Shown piece by piece: positions 8 through 21,903 of a DNA stretch of 47,308 nucleotides (the first letter of the stretch is position 1; each line of letters begins with the position of its first letter). Where the stretch lies: the NCBI GenBank assembly GCA_013823365.1, contig PNMC01000003.1, positions 1 through 47,308 on the forward strand. Direction: 5' to 3'. A program made the position numbers and the translations under genes. The notes beneath the pieces were generated by a model, which worked only from the letters and a program-made list of their open reading frames with translations, was not told the origin of the DNA and searched no databases. This DNA comes from Parvibaculum sp. Its GTDB lineage: Bacteria > Pseudomonadota > Alphaproteobacteria > Parvibaculales > Parvibaculaceae.

Positions 8-1090
8 ATGACTTCTTTCAAATTCTCTTCGCTAAGGACTTTCGCGGCGGCGCTTGCCGTTGTGGCGCTTGCTTTCACCTCATTCTCACCGGCACACGCC
101 GCGCCGAAGAAGGACTTCAAGGTGGCCTGGTCGATCTATGTCGGCTGGATGCCCTGGGGCTATGCGATGGACAATGGCATCGTGAAGAAGTGGGCCGACA
201 AGTATGACATCAATATCGAGGTCGTGCAGTTCAACGACTATATCGAGGCCATCAACCAGTACACGGCCGGCGCCTATGACGGCGTGATGGCGACCAACAT
301 GGATGCGCTCGCCATTCCTGCAGCAGGCGGCGTCGACTCCACCATCCTCATTATCTGCGATTACTCGGACGGCAACGACGTCATCATTCTCAAGGGGAAA
401 GACAAGCTCGAAGACATCAAGGGGCAGCGGGTCAACCTCGTCGAGCTTTCGGTGTCGCATTACACGCTGGCTCGCGGCCTGGAGTCGGTCGGCCTGACGG
501 AGCGCGACGTCACGGTCATCAACACGTCGGATGCCGACATGATCGCCGCCTATGCAACACCGCAGGTGACCGCAATGGTGACCTGGAACCCGATGGCGGC
601 CGAGATTCTGGCAGCGCCCAACGCCCACAACGTGTTCGACTCCACGAAGCTTCCCGGTGAAATCCAGGACTCGCTCGTCGTAAACACGCAGACCTTGAAG
701 GACAATCCGGACTTCGCCAAGGCCATGACGGGCATCTGGTACGAAACCATGGCGCTGATGTCCGCCGACGACGAGGCGGCCAAGGCCGCGAAGACGGCGA
801 TGGGCGTTGCGTCCGGCACCGATCTCGAAGGTTATGAGATGCAGCTCGCGGCGACGGCCATGTTCTACAAGCCCGAAGACTACATCACCTTTACCGAGGG
901 CAACCTTGCCGAGCTTACCTCCTTCGTGACGAAGTTCCTTTTCGACCACGGACTTCTCGGCGAAGCTGCGACCTCGCCCGGCTATATCGGCATCGAGCTT
1001 GCAGACGGCACGATCGTGGGCGACGAAAGCAACGTGCTGCTTCGCTACAACACCGAGTACGCGAAAATGGCTGCCGAAGGGAAGCTCTGA
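8..1090 (+). CDS. ABC transporter substrate-binding protein of the guanidine (formerly 'urea carboxylase') locus
   Basis: This is the periplasmic binding protein of an importer, 360 aa. Residues 1-31 form a Sec signal peptide (basic start, a long Ala/Val core and AHA-A before the mature end). The rest has the two-lobed NitT/TauA-like layout, with a ligand-region segment VAWSIYVGWMPWGY near residue 39. It resembles the binding-protein family normally found beside urea carboxylase genes. It is the first gene of a same-strand run of transporter and catabolic genes, so its ligand is most likely guanidine or a guanidinium compound; that is inference from context. Only seven bases precede the ATG, so its ribosome site, promoter and any upstream riboswitch lie outside the window. 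The intact signal peptide supports this start. Confidence 0.85.
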   Translation: MTSFKFSSLRTFAAALAVVALAFTSFSPAHAAPKKDFKVAWSIYVGWMPWGYAMDNGIVKKWADKYDINIEVVQFNDYIEAINQYTAGAYDGVMATNMDALAIPAAGGVDSTILIICDYSDGNDVIILKGKDKLEDIKGQRVNLVELSVSHYTLARGLESVGLTERDVTVINTSDADMIAAYATPQVTAMVTWNPMAAEILAAPNAHNVFDSTKLPGEIQDSLVVNTQTLKDNPDFAKAMTGIWYETMALMSADDEAAKAAKTAMGVASGTDLEGYEMQLAATAMFYKPEDYITFTEGNLAELTSFVTKFLFDHGLLGEAATSPGYIGIELADGTIVGDESNVLLRYNTEYAKMAAEGKL

Positions 1091-1123: not shown

Positions 1124-1942
1124 ATGCGTAGATTAATCAACCGGCGGCCCGACATTGCGACGCGGTTTGGGCTCATGCTCGTACCCTTCGTGATCGTCAT
1201 CATCGTCTATATGGTTGCATCCGAGGCGCGTCTTTCGGTCAATCCGAACGACAAGCTTCTCCCTGGATGGTCGTCGATTTCGGCGGCCGTCGAGCGCATG
1301 GCGTTCCAGCCCGATCAGCGGACCGGCAATTACCTGCTCTGGACGGACACGATATCGAGCCTCACAAGGCTCGGTATCGGTGTCGCCATCGCAACGCTGA
1401 TCGGCGGTGTGTTCGGCATTCTGCAGGGGCTCATCCCCTACTGGCGGGCCACCTTCAACTCATTCACGGCGGTGCTCTCGATGATCCCGCCGCTCGCGCT
1501 TCTTCCCATCCTCTTCATTGCGCTGGGCCTTGGCGAGTTATCGAAAGTGGCGCTCATCGCCATCGGCATCACGCCGTTCCTTATCCGCGATCTGGCGCTG
1601 CGCACGGCCGAAATACCTCACGAGGAAATCATCAAGGCGCAGACGCTCGGCGCGTCGACATGGCAGATCATTCTCAGGGTCGTCGTGCCGCAAATGCTGC
1701 CCCGGCTTATCGACGGGCTTCGTTTCTCGCTCGGTGCGGCCTGGCTCTTTCTCATTGCGGCTGAGGCCATCGCATCGGATAGCGGGCTTGGCTATCGCAT
1801 CTTCCTGATGCGGCGTTATCTCGCCATGGACGTGATCCTGCCCTATGTCGCCTGGATCACCTTCCTTGCCTTCGCGCTCGACCTTGCGCTCCGCCTCTTC
1901 CAGCGTGTCGCATTTCCCTGGATGTTCCGGGGGCGCGCATGA
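1124..1942 (+). CDS. ABC transporter permease, guanidine locus
   Basis: This is an inner-membrane permease of the SsuC/TauC/NitT type, 272 aa. It has about six hydrophobic segments. The cytoplasmic EAA loop that contacts the ATPase is visible around residues 165-195 (EEIIKAQTLGAS followed by a conserved hydrophobic stretch and VVPQMLP). It starts 33 bases after the binding-protein stop, with a weak GAGG upstream, and its TGA overlaps the ATG of the ATPase (ATGA), so the two are translationally coupled. Together with its neighbours it should import the operon substrate. The substrate cannot be read from the sequence itself; guanidine is inferred from the downstream enzymes and riboswitch. Confidence 0.88.
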   Translation: MRRLINRRPDIATRFGLMLVPFVIVIIVYMVASEARLSVNPNDKLLPGWSSISAAVERMAFQPDQRTGNYLLWTDTISSLTRLGIGVAIATLIGGVFGILQGLIPYWRATFNSFTAVLSMIPPLALLPILFIALGLGELSKVALIAIGITPFLIRDLALRTAEIPHEEIIKAQTLGASTWQIILRVVVPQMLPRLIDGLRFSLGAAWLFLIAAEAIASDSGLGYRIFLMRRYLAMDVILPYVAWITFLAFALDLALRLFQRVAFPWMFRGRA

Positions 1943-2709
1943 CGCAGGTCACAGTCGAAAATCTCTGGAAGGTCTATGGCGACCAGACCGTGCTGGAGAA
2001 TATCAATTTTACGGCCGAGCCCGGCTCCTTCATCTCGCTTGTCGGGCCGTCCGGCTGCGGCAAGTCCACCTTCCTCCGCATGATGCTGGGCGATGAAAGC
2101 CCCAGCCGCGGCCGCATTCTGATCGATGGTGTGGAGCTCGAAGACGAACCGTCGCCCGATCGCGGCGTCGTCTTTCAGAAATACTCCGTCTTTCCACATC
2201 TCACCGCGCTTCAGAATGTGATGCTCGGCCTCGAATTCGGGGGGAGCCCTTTTCTCGCCCGGCTTCGCGGAAAGAAGCGGCGCGCGGCGCGGGCGGCCTC
2301 GCTCGAGATGCTTCAGAATGTCGGTCTGTCGCAAGCGGCAGGCAAATATCCGTCGGAACTTTCGGGCGGCATGCAGCAGCGGCTCGCCATCGCCCAGGCG
2401 CTCGTCAAGAAGCCGAAGATTTTGCTGCTCGACGAGCCGTTCGGCGCGCTCGATCCGGGCATCCGCGCGGAGGTGCACGACATCATGCTCCGGCTCTGGC
2501 GCGAGGAACGCATGACGATCTTCATGGTGACGCATGATCTTTCGGAGGCCTTCAAGCTCGGCACGCGCGTTATCGCGTTCGACAGGGTGAGAACGCGGCC
2601 GGAAGAGGCGAAGGCTTATGGCGCGACGGTGACGTTCGACCTCAAGGTCGACGGCAAGAGCGTGCCGCCCGCGCCGGCGGAACCGCCGCTGAAGGCGGCG
2701 GCGCAGTAG
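1939..2709 (+). CDS. ABC transporter ATP-binding protein, guanidine locus
   Basis: This is the ATPase that powers the importer, 256 aa. The Walker A motif GPSGCGKST spans residues 36-44 with the lysine at 42. The signature LSGGMQQR and the Walker B stretch ILLLDEPFGALD follow in the usual order, then the switch histidine in FMVTHD. It belongs to the nitrate/sulfonate/taurine class of import ATPases. The last 40 residues are an Ala/Pro/Lys-rich tail beyond the core fold. It overlaps the permease stop by four bases. A 114-base gap holding a structured RNA separates it from the enzyme genes, so transporter and enzymes can be set to different levels. Confidence 0.9.
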   Translation: MTQVTVENLWKVYGDQTVLENINFTAEPGSFISLVGPSGCGKSTFLRMMLGDESPSRGRILIDGVELEDEPSPDRGVVFQKYSVFPHLTALQNVMLGLEFGGSPFLARLRGKKRRAARAASLEMLQNVGLSQAAGKYPSELSGGMQQRLAIAQALVKKPKILLLDEPFGALDPGIRAEVHDIMLRLWREERMTIFMVTHDLSEAFKLGTRVIAFDRVRTRPEEAKAYGATVTFDLKVDGKSVPPAPAEPPLKAAAQ

Positions 2710-2714
2710 AATCG

Positions 2715-2823
2715 GCCGGGCAGGACGGCCTGCCCGGTGTCGCAAGGTTCCGCTCGGCGGAGCAACTGCCTGGACGGCCAGGCTTCGGCCCGGGGAAACC
2801 CGGCGCGCAACAGGAGACGCGCG
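2715..2823 (+). promoter_or_regulatory. Guanidine-II (mini-ykkC) riboswitch candidate
   Basis: Two hairpins with identical ACGG tetraloops lie in the gap between the ATPase and the first DUF1989 gene. P1 is CCGGGCAGG (2716-2724), ACGG (2725-2728), CCTGCCCGG (2729-2737), nine perfect pairs. P2 is GCCTGG (2768-2773), ACGG (2774-2777), CCAGGC (2778-2783), six perfect pairs. Two stem-loops with ACGR loops joined by a linker, just upstream of a ribosome site, is the defining architecture of the mini-ykkC / guanidine-II class, in which the loops bind guanidinium and pair with each other. A third hairpin with a GAAA loop follows (CCGGG 2790-2794, CCCGG 2799-2803). The AGGAG ribosome site (2812-2816) sits between complementary GCGCG (2803-2807) and CGCGC (2818-2822), which fits translational control of the gene at 2824. 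There is no U-tract, so it is not a terminator. Confidence 0.85.
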
Positions 2824-3660
2824 ATGGCGGAAGCAACCCGCAAGAAAGAATATACCGGCCCTTATGCCGCGCAGCAGGAGCGTTACGATCAGCTCTTCGG
2901 CGGCGCGAAGGCGCGCAAGAAGGACGTGGCCGATGCGCCGCGCAATCCGGCAGAGATTCCCCCGGCTCTCATCCGCTCGACGGAGGTGCTTGCGGGCGGC
3001 TGGGGCCATGCCCTGCCGGTGAAGCGCGGCGAGACGCTCAGGATCGTCAACAGGCATGGAACGCCCGGCGTGTCGGTGATCATGTTCAACTCTGCCGATA
3101 TGAGCGAGAGGCTCAATGCCGGCGATACGATGAAGGTGCAGTGGAATGCGCGGCTGACGCGCGGCGCCGGTCTCTTTTCCGATATGGGACGCGTGCTCGC
3201 GTCGATCACGGACGACACATATGGCCGTCACGATGCGTTGACCGGCGGTTCGACGCCGGGCAGCAACGAGGAGCGCTACGGCGATGCCACCTTGCGCAGC
3301 ACGCGGGGGAACTTCGTCCTGCTCGCCTCGAAGCACGGGCTCGACAAGCGTGACATTCCGCCTTGCGTCACCTTCTTCGCGCCGGTTGGTGTCGACGCTC
3401 ATGGCCGGTTCCGCTGGGAAGGGGAGGGAGCGAAGGCGGGAGACTATGTGGACCTGCGCGCCGAACTCGACATTCTCGTCTTCGTGTCCAATGCGCCTCA
3501 CCCTTATGCACCCGGTGCCTATGCGCCGGGGGAAATCGACCTCCTCGTCTGGAAATCGCCACCGCCCACATCGGATGATTTCTGCCGCACCGCTTCGGAA
3601 GAGGCGATCCGCGGTTTCGAGAACAATGCGCGCTATCTTGCCGCGCGCGGAGAGGAGTGA
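2824..3660 (+). CDS. Carboxyguanidine deiminase subunit, UAAP1-type DUF1989 protein
   Basis: This 278-aa DUF1989 protein belongs to the group called urea carboxylase-associated protein 1. In Pseudomonas syringae, two DUF1989 proteins form the heterodimeric carboxyguanidine deiminase CgdAB, which turns carboxyguanidine into allophanate plus ammonia. The core here runs from about residue 50 (GGWGHALPVKRG) through FSDMGRVLASITDDTYGRHD to DYVDLRAELDILVFVSN. The ATG at 2824 has AGGAG seven bases upstream; a more distal in-frame start would run back through the riboswitch and is rejected. Where its partner has cysteines, this copy has STRGNF and GGSTPGSN, so it may be the non-catalytic or structural partner. 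Which of CgdA or CgdB it is, I cannot say. Confidence 0.85.
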   Translation: MAEATRKKEYTGPYAAQQERYDQLFGGAKARKKDVADAPRNPAEIPPALIRSTEVLAGGWGHALPVKRGETLRIVNRHGTPGVSVIMFNSADMSERLNAGDTMKVQWNARLTRGAGLFSDMGRVLASITDDTYGRHDALTGGSTPGSNEERYGDATLRSTRGNFVLLASKHGLDKRDIPPCVTFFAPVGVDAHGRFRWEGEGAKAGDYVDLRAELDILVFVSNAPHPYAPGAYAPGEIDLLVWKSPPPTSDDFCRTASEEAIRGFENNARYLAARGEE

Positions 3661-3665
3661 GGCCG

Positions 3666-4295
3666 ATGAGCATTCCCAATCGCAACGAAGCAGACGCTAT
3701 CTACGATTTCACGGTACCTGCGCTCCGCCCCTGGTCGCATGAGGTGAAGAAGGGGCAGATCCTCCGGATTATCGATCTCGAAGGCTGCCAGGCGGTCGAT
3801 ACGCTTTTTTACTCGAAGGCCGACCCGTCGGAGCGCTACAGCGCGCAGGATACAGTGCGCGTGCAGGGCTCTCCCTATGTGACGGCGGGCACGAAACTCA
3901 TTTCGAGCGAAGGCAATGTCATGGGCGTCGTGATCGCCGATACGTCGGGCAATCACGATACGTCGGCGGGTGCCTGCTCTGCGGAAGCCAACACGGTGCG
4001 CTTCGGCTACGAGACGCGCTACATGCACAGCTGCCGCGATAATTTCGTGATGGAGCTTTCGCGTCACGGGCTTACCAAGCGCGACATCGTCTCGAACATC
4101 AATTTCTTCATGAATGTGCCGGTCGAGGAAGACGGGACGCTTGCCATTGTCGACGGGATTTCGAAGCCGGGCGACTATGTCGAGATCCGCGCGGAGATGG
4201 ATCTGCTCTGCGTCATCTCGAATTGTCCGCAGGTGAACAATCCCTGCAATGGATTCAATCCCACTCCCGTCCGCACATTGATCTGGGACGCCTGA
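3666..4295 (+). CDS. Carboxyguanidine deiminase subunit, UAAP2-type DUF1989 protein
   Basis: This is the second DUF1989 protein, 209 aa, homologous to its upstream neighbour and predicted to pair with it as carboxyguanidine deiminase. It carries several cysteines that look like metal or catalytic ligands: C104 in GACSAEAN, C123 in MHSCRDNF, C182, and C187 and C194 in NCPQVNNPCNG. The matching C104 and C123 positions in the partner are not cysteine. The ATG at 3666 follows the previous stop by five bases with a GAGGAG-type site inside the end of the upstream gene; a GTG at 3657 is possible but badly spaced. The family has often been annotated as urea-related. The presence of both DUF1989 genes points to guanidine as substrate. 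Confidence 0.85.
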   Translation: MSIPNRNEADAIYDFTVPALRPWSHEVKKGQILRIIDLEGCQAVDTLFYSKADPSERYSAQDTVRVQGSPYVTAGTKLISSEGNVMGVVIADTSGNHDTSAGACSAEANTVRFGYETRYMHSCRDNFVMELSRHGLTKRDIVSNINFFMNVPVEEDGTLAIVDGISKPGDYVEIRAEMDLLCVISNCPQVNNPCNGFNPTPVRTLIWDA

Positions 4296-4341: not shown

Positions 4342-7300
4342 ATGTTCAAGAAGGTTCTGATCGCCAATCGAGGCGAGATCGCCGTCCGTGTCGTCAAGAC
4401 ATTGCGGCGCATGGGCATCATGCCCGTTGCAATATATTCCGAGGCCGACCGCTTTGCGCCGCATGTGCGGCTCGCGGATGAAGCGGTCTGCGTGGGCCCG
4501 GCGCCCGTGGCCGAGAGTTATCTCGATATCGATGCCATTCTCGCGGCTGCACGGGCGACCGGCGCGGAGGCCGTGCATCCCGGATACGGGTTTCTGAGCG
4601 AGAACCCGGAATTCGCGGCGGCGCTTGCACGCGAAGGCATCGCTTTCATCGGCCCGCGGCCGGAGCATATGCGCGCCTTCGCCCTGAAGCACACGGCGCG
4701 CGAGCTGGCGGAGAAGAGCGGCGTACCGCTGCTGCCCGGTTCGCCGCTCATCGTCGACCTCGACGATGCGCTGACGCGGGCCGATGAAATCGGCTATCCG
4801 GTCATGCTGAAAAGCACGGCGGGCGGCGGCGGCATCGGTCTCCAGCTTTGCCATTCGGCGGAAGAGATGCCGCGGCTTTATGAGACCGTGCGGCGGCTCT
4901 CGCTTGCGAATTTCAAGGATAGCGGTCTCTTTCTCGAGAAATATGTCGCCGCCGCGCGGCATATCGAGGTGCAGATATTCGGCGATGGCGAAGGGAACGT
5001 CATCGCGCTTGGCGAGCGCGACTGTTCCGCGCAGCGCCGCAACCAGAAGGTGATCGAGGAAACGCCGGCGCCGGGGCTGACGGCGGCGGACCGCGCGGCG
5101 CTGCATGAGGCGGCGGTGAGGCTCGGCAAAAGCGTTTCCTACGCGTCTGCCGGCACGGTCGAGTTCATCTACGACGAGGCGGAGAAGAAGTTCTATTTCC
5201 TCGAAGTGAACACGCGCCTTCAGGTCGAGCATCCGGTGACGGAGGAGGTGACGGGGCTCGATCTCGTGGAAATGATGGTGCGGCAGGCCGCGGGCGAGCT
5301 TGGCGCGCTGGAACAGTATATGCGCGAGCCGAAGGGCCATGCCATCGAGGTGCGGCTTTATGCCGAAGATCCCGGCAAGAATTTCCAGCCCTCCTCGGGC
5401 CTTCTCACCGAGGTGACGTTTCCCGAGGGCACTCGCGTCGATGGCTGGATCGCGACGGGGACGGAGGTGACGCCTTTCTACGACCCCATGCTCGCCAAGG
5501 TGATCGTGAAGGGCGCCACGCGAGAGGACGCGGCGGCCAAGCTCGCCGCGGCTCTCGATGCGTCGTCGGTCTATGGCATCGAAACCAATCTCGACTATCT
5601 GCGTGGCCTTGCGCGGTCGGACGCCTTTCTGCAGGGGCGGATGCTCACCTCGACGCTCGCGAGCCACGAGGCTGAAAGCGCCGCGATCGACGTGCTCTCG
5701 CCCGGCGCGCAATCGAGCCTGCAGGATTGGCCGGGGCGCGAGGGCTACTGGAATGTGGGCGTGCCGCCCTCGGGGCCGATGGATCCTCTGTCGCACCGGC
5801 TCGCAAACCGGCTTGCGGGCAATGCGGAAGATGCCGCAACCCTCGAAATGACGCTCGAAGGCCCGACGCTCCGCTTCCGCTGCGACGCCACCCTCGCACT
5901 CACGGGTGCGGAGATGGAGGCGGCGCTTGACGGGGTTCCGGTTTCCTTCTGGCAGGCTTTCGATGTGAAAAGGGGGCAGGTGCTCTCGCTCGGCCGGGTG
6001 AAGGGCGCGGGGCAGCGCGCCTATCTTGCGATCCGAAACGGTTTCGACGCGCCGCTCTATCTCGGCTCCCGCTCCGCATTCACGCTTGGCCGGTTCGGCG
6101 GGCACGGCACGGGTGCGCTGAAGACCGGCGATGTCTTGCGTATTGCAAAGGAGGGGGCGGTGGAACCCGCCGTTGCGACGCAGCTTCCGGTTTCCGCACG
6201 GGTGCCGCTCACGCGGGAATGGGAGATCGCCGTTCTCTACGGCCCGCACGGCGCACCGGACTTTTTTCTCGATGAGGACATCGATGCGCTTTTCGGCACG
6301 GCCTACGAGGTTCACTACAATTCCGCGCGAACGGGCGTGCGCCTCATCGGGCCGAAGCCGAAATGGGCGCGGAAGGATGGCGGTGAGGCGGGGCTTCATC
6401 CTTCGAATATTCACGACAATGCCTATGCCATCGGGACGATCGATTTCACGGGCGACATGCCGATCATTCTCGGGCCGGACGGGCCGAGCCTCGGCGGCTT
6501 TGTCTGCCCGGCAACGCTTGCAAAGGCCGAACTCTGGAAGCTCGGCCAGTTGAAGCCGGGCGACAAGGTGCGCTTTCACCGCATCACGGATGCGGAGGCT
6601 GCAGAGCGTCGGCGCGTGGAGGATCTCTGGGTGAAGGCACTTGCCCGCCCCGTCGCGCCGCTTGCGCGCCAAGCCGCAAAGGAAGACGCGATCCTGAAAC
6701 GGATCGGCGATCTCGAGACCGAAGTGACCTATCGGCGGGCGGGCGACGATTACCTGCTGATCGAATATGGCCCCATCGTGCTCGATTTCGCGCTGCGCTT
6801 CCGGGCGCATGCGATGATGACGGCGCTGGAGGAGCGTGCGCTTCAGGGCATCATCGAGATGACGCCTGGCATCCGCTCGCTTCAGATCCATTTCGATCCG
6901 GACGTGTTGCCGGCGCGCAAGCTTCTCTCGATTCTCGATGAGATGGAGCGGGCCCTGCCTGCGACGGCGGATATCGAGGTGCCGAGCCGCGTCGTGCATC
7001 TGCCCTTGTCATGGGACGATGAAGCGGCGCGCGAAGCGATCCGGAAGTACGAGACGCTCGTCAGGCCCGATGCGCCGTGGGTCCCGTCCAATATCGAGTT
7101 CATTCGCCGCATCAACGGGCTCAGCAGCATCGCAGATGTGAAGCGGATCGTCTTCGATGCGGATTACATGGTGCTCGGGCTCGGCGATGTCTATCTCGGC
7201 GCTCCCGTCGCAACACCGCTCGACCCGCGCCATCGGCTCGTGACCACGAAATACAATCCGGCGCGCACATGGACGCCTGAAAATGCCGTCGGCATCGGCG

Positions 7301-7962
7301 GCGCCTATCTCTGCGTCTATGGCATGGAGGGGCCGGGCGGCTACCAGCTTGTCGGCCGTACGGTGCAGATGTGGAACAGCTGGCGGAAGACCGCGAATTT
7401 CGAGAAGCCGTGGCTGCTTCGCTTCTTCGACAGGCTGCGCTTCTTCCCCGTTTCGGCGGAAGAGCTGAAGGAAGCGCGCGAGGCCTTCCCGCACGGTCGA
7501 TACGAAGTGAGGGTGGAGGAGGGCTCGTTCCGCCTCAGCGATTACTTCGCCTTCCTCGAGAAGAATGCGGAAGATATTTCCGCCTTCCGTGTCTCGCAGC
7601 GCCGCGCCTTCGAGGAGGAGCGGAAGCGCTGGGAAGAACAGGGCCTTGCCATGTCGGCGATGGAGCCGGAGGCGATAGCGGTCGAGGATGCGGCCGATGT
7701 GCCGGAGGGCGGGCGGCTCGTGGAGGCGGGCGTGCCGGGCAATGTCTGGTCCATCGGTGTGAAGCCGGGCGACGAGGTATCCGCCGACCAGACATTGGTG
7801 GTGCTCGAATCCATGAAAATGGAAATCGAGGTGCGGGCGCCGGTCGCAGCGCGCGTGCATGAGGTTCACTGCGCACCGGGCAAGATGGTGCAGGCGGGAC
7901 AGGCGCTCGTCACGCTCGTACCTATCGAGGCAGAACTGCCGGAGCTGGAGGCTGCATCGTGA
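4342..7962 (+). CDS. Biotin-dependent guanidine carboxylase (annotated family: urea carboxylase)
   Basis: This 1206-aa single-chain carboxylase uses ATP and bicarbonate to carboxylate guanidine (or urea) on nitrogen. Domains in order: biotin carboxylase N-lobe (about 1-110); ATP-grasp (about 115-320) with the glycine-rich loop STAGGGGIG at 158-166 and EVNTRLQVEH at 288-297; biotin carboxylase C-lobe (to about 440); KipA/AHS2-like (about 450-745) and KipI/AHS1-like (about 780-1040) carboxyltransferase halves; a charged linker; and a biotinyl domain with ESMKMEI, K1159 being the biotin site. Length and order match urea carboxylase. Bacterial members next to two DUF1989 genes prefer guanidine, and an Asp/Asn difference in the carboxyltransferase site separates guanidine from urea enzymes. 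I could not place that residue from memory. The start has CGGAGG five bases upstream. Confidence 0.92.
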   Translation: MFKKVLIANRGEIAVRVVKTLRRMGIMPVAIYSEADRFAPHVRLADEAVCVGPAPVAESYLDIDAILAAARATGAEAVHPGYGFLSENPEFAAALAREGIAFIGPRPEHMRAFALKHTARELAEKSGVPLLPGSPLIVDLDDALTRADEIGYPVMLKSTAGGGGIGLQLCHSAEEMPRLYETVRRLSLANFKDSGLFLEKYVAAARHIEVQIFGDGEGNVIALGERDCSAQRRNQKVIEETPAPGLTAADRAALHEAAVRLGKSVSYASAGTVEFIYDEAEKKFYFLEVNTRLQVEHPVTEEVTGLDLVEMMVRQAAGELGALEQYMREPKGHAIEVRLYAEDPGKNFQPSSGLLTEVTFPEGTRVDGWIATGTEVTPFYDPMLAKVIVKGATREDAAAKLAAALDASSVYGIETNLDYLRGLARSDAFLQGRMLTSTLASHEAESAAIDVLSPGAQSSLQDWPGREGYWNVGVPPSGPMDPLSHRLANRLAGNAEDAATLEMTLEGPTLRFRCDATLALTGAEMEAALDGVPVSFWQAFDVKRGQVLSLGRVKGAGQRAYLAIRNGFDAPLYLGSRSAFTLGRFGGHGTGALKTGDVLRIAKEGAVEPAVATQLPVSARVPLTREWEIAVLYGPHGAPDFFLDEDIDALFGTAYEVHYNSARTGVRLIGPKPKWARKDGGEAGLHPSNIHDNAYAIGTIDFTGDMPIILGPDGPSLGGFVCPATLAKAELWKLGQLKPGDKVRFHRITDAEAAERRRVEDLWVKALARPVAPLARQAAKEDAILKRIGDLETEVTYRRAGDDYLLIEYGPIVLDFALRFRAHAMMTALEERALQGIIEMTPGIRSLQIHFDPDVLPARKLLSILDEMERALPATADIEVPSRVVHLPLSWDDEAAREAIRKYETLVRPDAPWVPSNIEFIRRINGLSSIADVKRIVFDADYMVLGLGDVYLGAPVATPLDPRHRLVTTKYNPARTWTPENAVGIGGAYLCVYGMEGPGGYQLVGRTVQMWNSWRKTANFEKPWLLRFFDRLRFFPVSAEELKEAREAFPHGRYEVRVEEGSFRLSDYFAFLEKNAEDISAFRVSQRRAFEEERKRWEEQGLAMSAMEPEAIAVEDAADVPEGGRLVEAGVPGNVWSIGVKPGDEVSADQTLVVLESMKMEIEVRAPVAARVHEVHCAPGKMVQAGQALVTLVPIEAELPELEAAS

Positions 7963-9767
7963 AGTCGCTCGTTTTTTCTCTCTCCGCGCTTCGCGCTGGG
8001 TTCGCCGCGGGTCTTCGGGCGGAAGATGTGGCGCGCGAGGCGCTGGCGCGCGCCAACGGGTTTGCCGATCCCGCCGTCTGGCTAGCGAGGGTGCCGGATG
8101 AGGCTGTGATCGCGCGGGCCCGCGCGCTCGATGCGCTGCCGGCGGCGGAGCGGGCGTTGAAGCCGCTATTCGGTATTCCCTTCGCCGTGAAGGACAATAT
8201 CGATCTCGAAGGATTGCCGACAAGCGCCGCCTGCCCCGCCTTTGCCTATGAGCCGGCAAAAAGCTCCTTTGTGGTGGAGAAGCTTGTCGCGGCAGGCGCG
8301 ATCCCGATCGGAAAGACCAATCTCGATCAGTTTGCGACGGGGCTTGTGGGCACGCGCTCGCCGCATGGTGCCCCGCGCTCGGTCTTCAATCCGGATTACA
8401 TTTCCGGCGGCTCGTCGTCGGGTTCCGCGGTTGCGGTGGCGGGCGGCATCGTCGCCTTCTCGCTCGGCACGGATACGGCAGGCTCCGGCCGCGTGCCGGC
8501 GGCCTTCAACAATATTGTGGGGCTGAAGCCCTCGCGCGGTCTTCTCTCGACAAGCGGTGTCGTTCCTGCCTGCCGGTCTCTCGATTGCGTCTCCATCTTC
8601 GCGCTCAATGTATCCGACGCTGCGGAAATCTTCGATATCGCCGCGGGCTTCGACGCGGCGGATATTTTCTCCCGGACGCGCATGCCGGAGGCAACGGTCT
8701 CTCCCGGACAGGGTTTTACCTTCGCCGTGCCGCGCGCCTCCGATCTCAAATTCTTCGGCGACGATGAGGCCGCGCGGCTGTTCGAGGAGGCGGTGGTGCG
8801 CTTCGAGGAACTGGGCGGGCATACGCGGCGGATCGATTTCTCGCTCTTCGAGGAGGCGGCGGCACTTCTTTACGACGGTCCTTATGTGGCCGAGCGCTTT
8901 GCTGCGGTGGGCTCCTTCATCGAGGCCAACCGGGGGGCGACGGATCCCACCGTCGGCGGCATCGTGCTGGCGGCGAAGTCGCGAAGCGCGAGCGAGCTTT
9001 TCGAGGCGGGCTACCGGCTCGAAGCGTTGAAGCGCCGGGCGGGCGCGCTTTTCTCGGAGATCGATTTCCTGCTGGTGCCGACGGCGCCGACGACATATCG
9101 CGTCAGCGAGGTGATGGCCGAGCCTCTGAAGCTCAACAGCCGTCTCGGCACCTATACCAATTTCATGAACCTGCTCGACCTTTGCGGCATCGCGGTGCCG
9201 GCGGGATTCCGGGAGACGGGGCCGCTCGAGGGCCTGCCTTTCGGGGTCACGCTCGCTGCGCCCGCCTTTGCCGATATGCGGATTGCGCGCTTCGCATCGG
9301 CCTTCGAAGCGGCGCAGGGGCTTGCGTCCGGCGCGGCGCGGGAGGAAGAGGCGGCCGATGAAGGCTTTATCGAGCTTGCCGTGGTCGGTGCGCATATGTC
9401 GGGCCTGCCGCTCAATCACGAGCTTACCTGGCGCGACGGCATGTTCGTGGAGCGCACCCAGACAGCGCCGCATTATCGCTTTTATGCACTGGCGGGCGGG
9501 CCGCCTTTCCGGCCGGGTCTTGTGCGTGTTGCGGAAGGAGGCGCGGCGATCGAGCTTGAGGTCTGGCGCCTGCCGCGCGCTGCCTTCGGCAGCTTCATGG
9601 CCGGGGTGCCGCAGCCTCTCTGCATCGGCACGCTCGATCTCGCGGGCGGGAAAAAGGTGAAAGGCTTTCTCTGCGAGGCAAGCGGTCTCGACGGCGCGGA
9701 GGACATCACCTCATTCGGCGGATGGCGCGCCTTCATGGCGGCAAAGGCCGCCCGGGAGAGCGCGTAG
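7959..9767 (+). CDS. atzF: Allophanate hydrolase
   Basis: This 602-aa amidase-signature enzyme hydrolyses allophanate to ammonia and CO2, the last step of the operon pathway. The Ser-cisSer-Lys triad is readable: K78 in AVKDNID, S152 in ISGGSSSGS and nucleophile S176 in GTDTAGSGR, with the usual 24-residue spacing between the serines. After about residue 460 comes the extra C-terminal domain typical of AtzF-type allophanate hydrolases (around VVGAHMSGLPLNHEL and YRFYALAGGPPFRPG), which completes decarboxylation and deamination of the intermediate. It starts at a GTG overlapping the carboxylase stop (GTGA), so it is translationally coupled. In fungi the two enzymes are fused as urea amidolyase; here they are separate. 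Confidence 0.93.
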   Translation: MKSLVFSLSALRAGFAAGLRAEDVAREALARANGFADPAVWLARVPDEAVIARARALDALPAAERALKPLFGIPFAVKDNIDLEGLPTSAACPAFAYEPAKSSFVVEKLVAAGAIPIGKTNLDQFATGLVGTRSPHGAPRSVFNPDYISGGSSSGSAVAVAGGIVAFSLGTDTAGSGRVPAAFNNIVGLKPSRGLLSTSGVVPACRSLDCVSIFALNVSDAAEIFDIAAGFDAADIFSRTRMPEATVSPGQGFTFAVPRASDLKFFGDDEAARLFEEAVVRFEELGGHTRRIDFSLFEEAAALLYDGPYVAERFAAVGSFIEANRGATDPTVGGIVLAAKSRSASELFEAGYRLEALKRRAGALFSEIDFLLVPTAPTTYRVSEVMAEPLKLNSRLGTYTNFMNLLDLCGIAVPAGFRETGPLEGLPFGVTLAAPAFADMRIARFASAFEAAQGLASGAAREEEAADEGFIELAVVGAHMSGLPLNHELTWRDGMFVERTQTAPHYRFYALAGGPPFRPGLVRVAEGGAAIELEVWRLPRAAFGSFMAGVPQPLCIGTLDLAGGKKVKGFLCEASGLDGAEDITSFGGWRAFMAAKAARESA

Positions 9768-20164: not shown

Positions 20165-20247
20165 GCGCCGCACGATAGGCAAGCGCGTGGCGCATGGCCA
20201 GCAATGCCTGAAGCTTGACATTGCCGCCGATATGTTGACCCTCTCCA

Positions 20248-20432
20248 CCGTCACGGTTCCCCGGAACGTCATCCGGGGTGAAAAGGGAATCCGGGACGTC
20301 TCAAGAGAGACGCAAGCCGGAGCTGCCCCCGCAACTGTAAGCGGTGAGCCGACGTTCGATCATGCCACTGGCGAGAGCCGGGAAGGCGGAACGGAGGCCG
20401 AGACCCGCGAGTCAGGAGACCTGCCGCGACGG
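20248..20432 (+). promoter_or_regulatory. Cobalamin riboswitch
   Basis: The conserved B12-riboswitch blocks are present in order: GGTGAAAAGGGAA (20277-20289), GGAGCTGCCCCCGCAACTG (20319-20337) followed by TAAGCGG, GCCACTGG (20354-20361), GGGAAGGCG and CCCGCGAGTCAGGAGACC (20404-20421). A closing P1 stem is offered by CCGTC (20248-20252) and GACGG (20428-20432). Between the aptamer and the next ATG lies a hairpin GGTGCC (20451-20456) / GGCACC (20472-20477), a plausible part of the expression platform. Adenosylcobalamin should repress the membrane protein and binding protein downstream. Confidence 0.95.
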
Positions 20433-20546
20433 AAACTGGATTTTGGGCGGGGTGCCCCGAAAGCCGTTGGCGGCACCGCCTTCGTCCGCCCGCGTCTTCC
20501 GTCATTCCCGTCCTCCATCATGAGGCTCATAACGAGGGAATGGCCA

Positions 20547-21102: not shown

Positions 21103-21903
21103 ATGTTTCCGCCCGAAAGGATCGTCTGTCTCACCGAAGAGACCGTCGAGACGCTTTATCTTCTGGGCGAGCAGGACCGTATCGTCGGCATATCCGGCTA
21201 TACGGTCCGCCCGCCCGAAGCACGCCGCGAGAAGCCGAAAGTCTCGGCCTTCATCTCGGCCGATCTGCCGAAGATCCTCGCGCTTGAGCCCGATCTCGTT
21301 CTCGCCTTTTCCGATATTCAGGGCGATATCGTGCGCGACCTCGTGCGGGCCGGGCTCAATGTCCACGCCTTCAACCAGCGGACCGTGCCCGAGATCCTCG
21401 ACATGATCGCGATGCTCGGCGCGCTGACAGGCGCGGAGAAAAAGGCGGAGGCGCTGATCGGCAGGCTGGTGCGCGGCATGGAGGAGGTGCGCGAGGAAAG
21501 TGCGAAGCTTCGTTTGCGCCCCAAGGTCTATTTCGAGGAATGGGACGAGCCGGCGATCTCCGGTATCGCCTGGGTTTCCGAGCTGATCGAATGCGCGGGC
21601 GGCGACGACATATATAAAGAGCTCGCCTCCTGCCGTTCGGCGAAGGATCGCGTGGTCGTGCATGACGAAACGGCGCGGCGTGCACCCGACCTCGTTATCG
21701 GCTCATGGTGCGGGAAAAAATTCCGGACGGAGAAGGTCATGGCCCGGCCCGAATTCGCATCGCTCGCCGCGGTGAGGGACGGCGCGGTCCGTGAAATCAA
21801 GTCGCCCATCATCCTCCAGCCCGGTCCTGCGGCTTTGACCGACGGGCTTGCCGCGCTCCGCGACCTCATCCATGCGCGTGCAAGGGTGCTGGGAAAAAGC
21901 TAG
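21103..21903 (+). CDS. BtuF-like cobalamin-binding (class III periplasmic-binding fold) protein without signal peptide
   Basis: This 266-aa protein has the helix-linked two-lobe fold of BtuF/FhuD proteins: RIVCLTEETVETLYLLGEQDRIVGIS at the start, then LPKILALEPDLVLAFSDIQ and VPEILDMIAMLGALTGAEKKA, and a C-terminal lobe with APDLVIGSWCGKKF. The protein starts directly at the fold, with no signal peptide or lipobox, so either it is cytoplasmic or the true start differs; no better in-frame start is visible upstream. It shares the riboswitch-controlled transcript with the membrane protein before it. Family members like this are often labelled cobalamin-binding protein, sometimes standing alone without BtuC/BtuD, which are also absent here. 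Confidence 0.82.
   Translation: MFPPERIVCLTEETVETLYLLGEQDRIVGISGYTVRPPEARREKPKVSAFISADLPKILALEPDLVLAFSDIQGDIVRDLVRAGLNVHAFNQRTVPEILDMIAMLGALTGAEKKAEALIGRLVRGMEEVREESAKLRLRPKVYFEEWDEPAISGIAWVSELIECAGGDDIYKELASCRSAKDRVVVHDETARRAPDLVIGSWCGKKFRTEKVMARPEFASLAAVRDGAVREIKSPIILQPGPAALTDGLAALRDLIHARARVLGKS

Follow-up and report, generated by a model that had tools for sequence, protein, structure and literature searches.

A probable guanidine-II riboswitch between the importer and deiminase genes of a guanidine operon in Parvibaculum

Introduction

What kind of RNA element lies between the importer genes and the enzyme genes of a guanidine operon in Parvibaculum, and what would it add to the control of that operon? 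The operon fills the first 9.8 kb of a stretch of 47,308 nucleotides (nt) (the window; contig PNMC01000003.1, positions 1 to 47,308) of a Parvibaculum genome assembled from a metagenome (labelled G000). It encodes an ATP-binding cassette (ABC) importer, the carboxyguanidine deiminase subunits CgdA and CgdB, a urea/guanidine-type carboxylase and allophanate hydrolase. An earlier note on this DNA had described, between importer and enzymes and ahead of the ribosome site of the first DUF1989 gene, two perfect hairpins with identical ACGG loops (P1, 9 base pairs (bp), 2716–2737; P2, 6 bp, 2768–2783), and had proposed a mini-ykkC (guanidine-II) architecture. The description holds: the hairpins lie in the junction between the ATPase stop codon (2709) and the ATG at 2824 of the gene in question, which is cgdA. 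The proposed class is also borne out: the loops are conserved, the stems covary, a held-out covariance model matches the site, and orthologues with short linkers exceed the Rfam cut-off. Positions 2715–2783 are thus very probably a genuine guanidine-II riboswitch aptamer, judged from sequence comparison, in the messenger RNA (mRNA) between the ATPase gene and cgdA, and the element presumably binds guanidine.

Identity of the element

The operon genes and the RNA features of the junction are on the forward strand. P1 (2715–2738; GCCGGGCAGG-ACGG-CCTGCCCGGT) has 10 bp when its outer G-U pair is included and a loop at 2725–2728; P2 (2768–2783; GCCTGG-ACGG-CCAGGC) has 6 bp and a loop at 2774–2777; both loops are flanked by GG/CC. 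When ACGR hairpins with stems of 6 bp or more are paired up within 45 nt, the window yields exactly one pair and 60 dinucleotide shuffles yield none; with a minimum stem of 4 bp there is one pair against a shuffle mean of 0.15. The 29-nt linker (roughly 10–38 nt in relatives) holds a hairpin absent from the earlier note, a 7-bp stem at 2747–2763 (GTTCCGC-TCG-GCGGAGC) in the minimum free energy fold. In seven long-linker relatives 97.5% of its alignment cells are paired, with covariation too weak in these sequences to claim; short-linker relatives lack it.

Every one of the 21 Parvibaculum genomes that gave a full-length cgdA match carries P1 and P2 with their GGACGRCC cores at this place, in a set of operons picked by the cgdA gene and not by the RNA. 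Among the 17 distinct cores of this set, 91.8% of cells are paired, changes on both sides of a pair number 31 compared with 9.4 in shuffles, and the covariation score is 0.399 compared with 0.162. The shuffle control ignores relatedness; in a slid-register control the score also drops, to 0.12 or less. Extending the alignment to 33 distinct sequences gave 65 cells changed on both sides compared with 29.1 in shuffles, a figure to be read with the fact that the members from other genera were picked by motif and are hence biased towards pairing.

The default Rfam scan of the window gave no match at this site. The Rfam guanidine-II model (RF01068) has a gathering cut-off of 32 bits, which is a detection threshold and not a physical feature, and the window copy reaches 18.2 bits. 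By itself this result counts against the assignment, and the Rfam search that the earlier note had called for would, taken alone, look negative because the default match at the window copy is below the cut-off. In the sub-threshold alignment P1 is matched, whereas the region of the linker hairpin is paired in place of P2, and the low score arises because the structured linker puts P2 beyond the reach of the model. The same search is positive at the same site in four short-linker orthologues (in G015, G012, G025 and G003, with scores of 37.9, 37.6, 34.9 and 33.0 bits among them); G015 is also locus L016, under which its match was recovered a second time. The Rfam model, in other words, misses elements with structured linkers. 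A covariance model with a flexible linker, built from 15 leaders solely of other alphaproteobacterial genera, matched the window at 2709–2784 (35.7 bits, E-value 2.6e-6), the next match scoring 13.0 bits, and found the same site in relatives too.

These results bear on the possibility that the hairpins are ordinary, ligand-free intercistronic structures, such as GC-rich processing or stabilising stems. The high GC content, the Rfam score of the window copy and a fold of the whole leader with no more than a modest margin over shuffles (z −1.94) would all be in keeping with that explanation. It is nevertheless scarcely credible, since none of the 33 distinct sequences departs, in either hairpin, from the two innermost pairs (GG/CC) or from the A, C and G of the ACGR loop even though the outer stems covary, the position is fixed across genera, and the short-linker orthologues pass Rfam.

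The guanidine-II assignment also accords with other properties of the family. Like RF01068 members, the window element has two GC-rich hairpins with ACGR loops and GG/CC closing pairs, a linker longer than 13 nt (the great majority of guanidine-II RNAs have linkers of at least 13 nt) and genes of guanidine metabolism behind it, namely cgdA/cgdB and those of the carboxylase and allophanate hydrolase. It differs from them in the hairpin within its linker, in its score below the Rfam cut-off and in that no anti-Shine-Dalgarno sequence was found in its linker, although such a sequence belongs to the proposed mechanism and does not define the aptamer. In this family the conserved loop cores are required for the kissing pocket, and guanidine binding is cooperative and involves two molecules.

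The same genome carries a second guanidine-II candidate (L001:838-896, on contig G000:C147), which scores 31.3 bits, just under the Rfam cut-off, and lies directly before a gene for a SugE-like exporter of the small multidrug resistance family.

A guanidine-I riboswitch at the start of the operon

The window begins close to the start of the operon, and its genome contains a guanidine-I riboswitch at G000:C21:26381-26505 (81.0 bits; Rfam cut-off 63 bits), 83 nt from the end of contig C21. Because the end of C21 (GATCCGGAGGAC) joined to the first bases of the window (TGGCTATATGACTTC) reads as in the unbroken locus L011, we infer that a contig break separates this leader from its operon. Guanidine-I above the cut-off stands intact before the importer in L009, L011, L012, L014, L015 and L016, and is present in 19 of 27 Parvibaculum genomes. 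With guanidine-I at the start of the operon, the importer would therefore be controlled by guanidine too. The earlier note had the internal element tune the catabolic half apart from the importer; its placement between importer and enzymes stands, but the importer is not left outside guanidine control. One guanidine operon would accordingly be checked twice by unrelated RNA classes.

Behind the guanidine-I aptamer (G000:C21:26507-26588, locus L085), TCCTCCG is perfectly complementary over 7 nt to the importer ribosome site CGGAGGA, and an upstream GAGG-TTGG strand offers it an alternative partner; the platform looks translational rather than terminator-type. In L132, L138, L139 and L147 a single operon begins with two successive guanidine-I riboswitches, each before its own binding-protein gene, and at L015:1828-3229 the binding-protein gene aligns as two offset overlapping pieces (residues 1–68 and 31–360), as if partly duplicated or broken.

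Position relative to known dual-class operons and across lineages

Operons with both guanidine-I and guanidine-II have been described, with guanidine-II before the guanidine carboxylase gene gca, in Vreelandella (PMC12508155) and in Raoultella, Erwinia and Klebsiella (PMC12186494). In Vreelandella both classes bind guanidine in vitro, and in-line probing of a guanidine-II RNA from a sister operon gave a dissociation constant of 93 uM for guanidine (PMC12508155). The operons of Vreelandella boliviensis (PMC12508155) and of the three other genera (PMC12186494) resemble that of Parvibaculum in having guanidine-I at the start, one internal guanidine-II, an importer and the carboxyguanidine pathway. 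They differ in that their guanidine-II lies between cgdB and gca, whereas that of Parvibaculum separates the importer ATPase gene from cgdA and so precedes the deiminase. The window element is thus a positional variant, and we provisionally consider the cgdA position new relative to the published dual-class operons. The catabolic setting as such is less unusual than the earlier note had supposed in regarding guanidine-II as usually found before exporters: in the literature slightly more than half of the examples precede exporters, and guanidine-II is also known inside guanidine carboxylase operons.

We mapped the gene order around guanidine-I matches, both among Alphaproteobacteria and for a sample drawn from the phylum; sampling was uneven, and we made the tallies ourselves. 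In alphaproteobacterial loci other than those of Parvibaculum in which the importer is directly followed by cgdA, guanidine-II was found at the junction in 20 of 20 (G368, G251, G195, G066, G268, G416, G414, G415, G065, G193, G201, G366, G297, G292, G068, G751, G767, G452, G510 and G646). For the rest of the phylum, the sample includes 22 genomes with guanidine-II between cgdB and the carboxylase gene (18 by scan; G530, G574, G766 and G768 by Rfam position set against the mapped genes) and none with it before cgdA. Sulfurospirillum (L019) likewise has it between cgdB and the carboxylase gene. Within these samples, only Alphaproteobacteria have guanidine-II before cgdA, and only the other groups have it before gca. 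Lineage thus determines where the second check stands: in front of the deiminase in the former, in front of the carboxylase in the latter.

No guanidine-II was found in some alphaproteobacterial loci in which guanidine-I directly precedes cgdA (e.g. G272, G351, G373, G318, L017 and L018). In one of these, the Hansschlegelia locus L018, a weak model match between guanidine-I and cgdA (21.6 bits, 35 nt) was rejected as too short for both hairpins; the site has a single ACGC-loop hairpin. A class-wide search for the pattern GGACGRCC-N-GGACGRCC was also set aside as too noisy in GC-rich genomes, where controls were as frequent or more so, and its matches were used solely where they lay near a guanidine-I.

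In eight loci of other alphaproteobacteria (L101, L106, L120, L121, L123, L124, L127 and L129) a stretch immediately 5' of P1 has its complement in the 3' part of the linker, the letters differing between loci (e.g. GCCCC/GGGGC and GCCTC/GAGGC). These complements may form an outer helix enclosing P1, which Parvibaculum lacks.

Tandem leaders in relatives

In three Parvibaculum genomes (G001, G005 and G010) no gene remains between guanidine-I and guanidine-II: the importer genes are gone, guanidine-I ends about 60–80 nt before P1, and cgdA follows. The guanidine-I scores in these genomes are 84.7, 84.1 and 80.5 bits, respectively, and those of guanidine-II with the held-out model 37.6, 41.8 and 31.6 bits. 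In a related genus, g277 (G410 and G411), the sole gene left between the two riboswitches is that of the binding protein. In the CgdB tree the three tandem genomes form one group (support 94/66), which in turn joins G411 (99/97); this suggests that the importer genes were lost stepwise from between the two riboswitches. On balance we favour a history in which the lineage-specific cgdA position in Alphaproteobacteria and stepwise loss of the importer (three genes, the binding-protein gene alone, none) gave rise to true mixed-class tandems in Parvibaculum, the first of guanidine classes I and II.

A 2022 survey of tandem riboswitches reports that none of the guanidine classes turned up in tandem (PMC9481103), and the relevant passages of a 2025 survey name solely T-box plus guanidine (PMC12452182). 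The leaders of G001, G005 and G010, though not that of the window, are comparable to the tandem bi-mechanism riboswitches of the 2022 survey (SAM-II/SAM-V and others) in that two riboswitch classes with the same ligand share a leader, and differ from them in that the surveyed tandems include no guanidine class. These relatives offer a natural compact leader for measuring two structurally unrelated sensors of one ligand together. Upstream of the tandem leader in G001 (L087:1-4200) we noted by eye another ABC importer and creatininase-like, glutamine-synthetase-like and NikR-like regulator genes.

Proposed mechanism

Our proposal starts from what is observed directly, namely the sequence, structure, conservation and position of the aptamer and the second riboswitch. 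Guanidine-I at the 5' end would gate the message and the importer, and guanidine-II would gate ribosome entry at cgdA as a second reading of guanidine. Imported guanidine would bind the two ACGG loops, P1 and P2 would kiss, and cgdA would then be translated, with cgdB and probably gca following by coupling. The likely benefit would be a separate second check, the importer needing guanidine-I alone and cgdA needing intracellular guanidine at the moment of translation.

The ligand could instead be mainly another guanidino compound, e.g. methylguanidine, so that the enzymes would respond to a wider range of signals than the importer does. We consider this quite improbable, as the operon genes that were read include none for methylguanidine demethylation and the loop cores match those of RNAs that bind guanidine.

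The ON direction and the action on translation would follow, by analogy, from the family and from the purpose of the operon. In published models for guanidine-II, guanidine makes P1 and P2 kiss and so frees the ribosome site from an anti-Shine-Dalgarno sequence in the linker (PMC9094411). Two kinds of calculation lend such an action no support here. Accessibility of the ribosome site showed no consistent predicted shift when P1 and P2 were forced or P2 was barred. Complementarity of the linker to the ribosome site equalled that of shuffled linkers (Parvibaculum mean −9.6 versus −9.4 kcal/mol) and was no better than that of linkers crossed with the ribosome sites of other species. The anti-Shine-Dalgarno mechanism is thus unsupported at this locus, and neither kind of calculation found an RNA strand masking the ribosome site. 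Downstream of P2 are a P3 hairpin (2790–2803; CCGGG-GAAA-CCCGG; minimum free energy fold), a possible expression platform, and a CGCGC...GCGCG bracket (2804–2823) around the ribosome site AGGAG (2812–2816) ahead of the ATG at 2824. Most Parvibaculum relatives carry a hairpin of other sequence at the P3 position, and the bracket is kept only in part in relatives. The more elaborate expression platform suggested earlier thus has partial support: its additional hairpins do exist in the sequence, yet we could not show that the ribosome site is masked in a conserved way.

The missing mask leads to an alternative in which a genuine aptamer works between the genes, through mRNA decay or Rho-dependent termination and not at the cgdA ribosome site, the importer message ending or being trimmed at the junction when guanidine is absent. 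In the window the ATPase stop codon ends 5 nt ahead of the aptamer, guanidine-III acts on RNA stability (PMC12186494), and translation and termination are often linked. This alternative seems unlikely all the same, given that the published guanidine-II models are translational (PMC9094411, PMC12508155) and that the distance from stop codon to P1 varies among relatives. Translational control of cgdA by guanidine remains the reading we prefer.

Gene content of the operon and other features of the window

Genes were assigned by NCBIfam profile matches with their bit scores and cut-offs. The importer comprises a substrate-binding protein of putative urea/guanidine type (8..1090; TIGR03427, 497.9 bits, above cut-off), which has the guanidine-I leader just upstream on C21, a permease (1124..1942; matches below the cut-offs, gene order shared with relatives) and the ATPase (1939..2709), whose stop codon ends 5 nt before P1. 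Directly behind the guanidine-II element are cgdA (2824..3660; DUF1989, UAAP1; TIGR03425, above cut-off) and cgdB (3666..4295; DUF1989, UAAP2; TIGR03424, above cut-off), followed by gca (4342..7962; TIGR02712, 1866.6 bits) and the allophanate hydrolase gene (7959..9767; TIGR02713, above cut-off). The product of gca is annotated as urea carboxylase; the content of the operon points to guanidine, not urea, as its substrate.

Elsewhere in the window, a cobalamin riboswitch (20237–20442, 121.4 bits) is followed by a membrane-protein frame and by a frame at 21103–21903 that by eye resembles a periplasmic B12/iron-siderophore binding protein.
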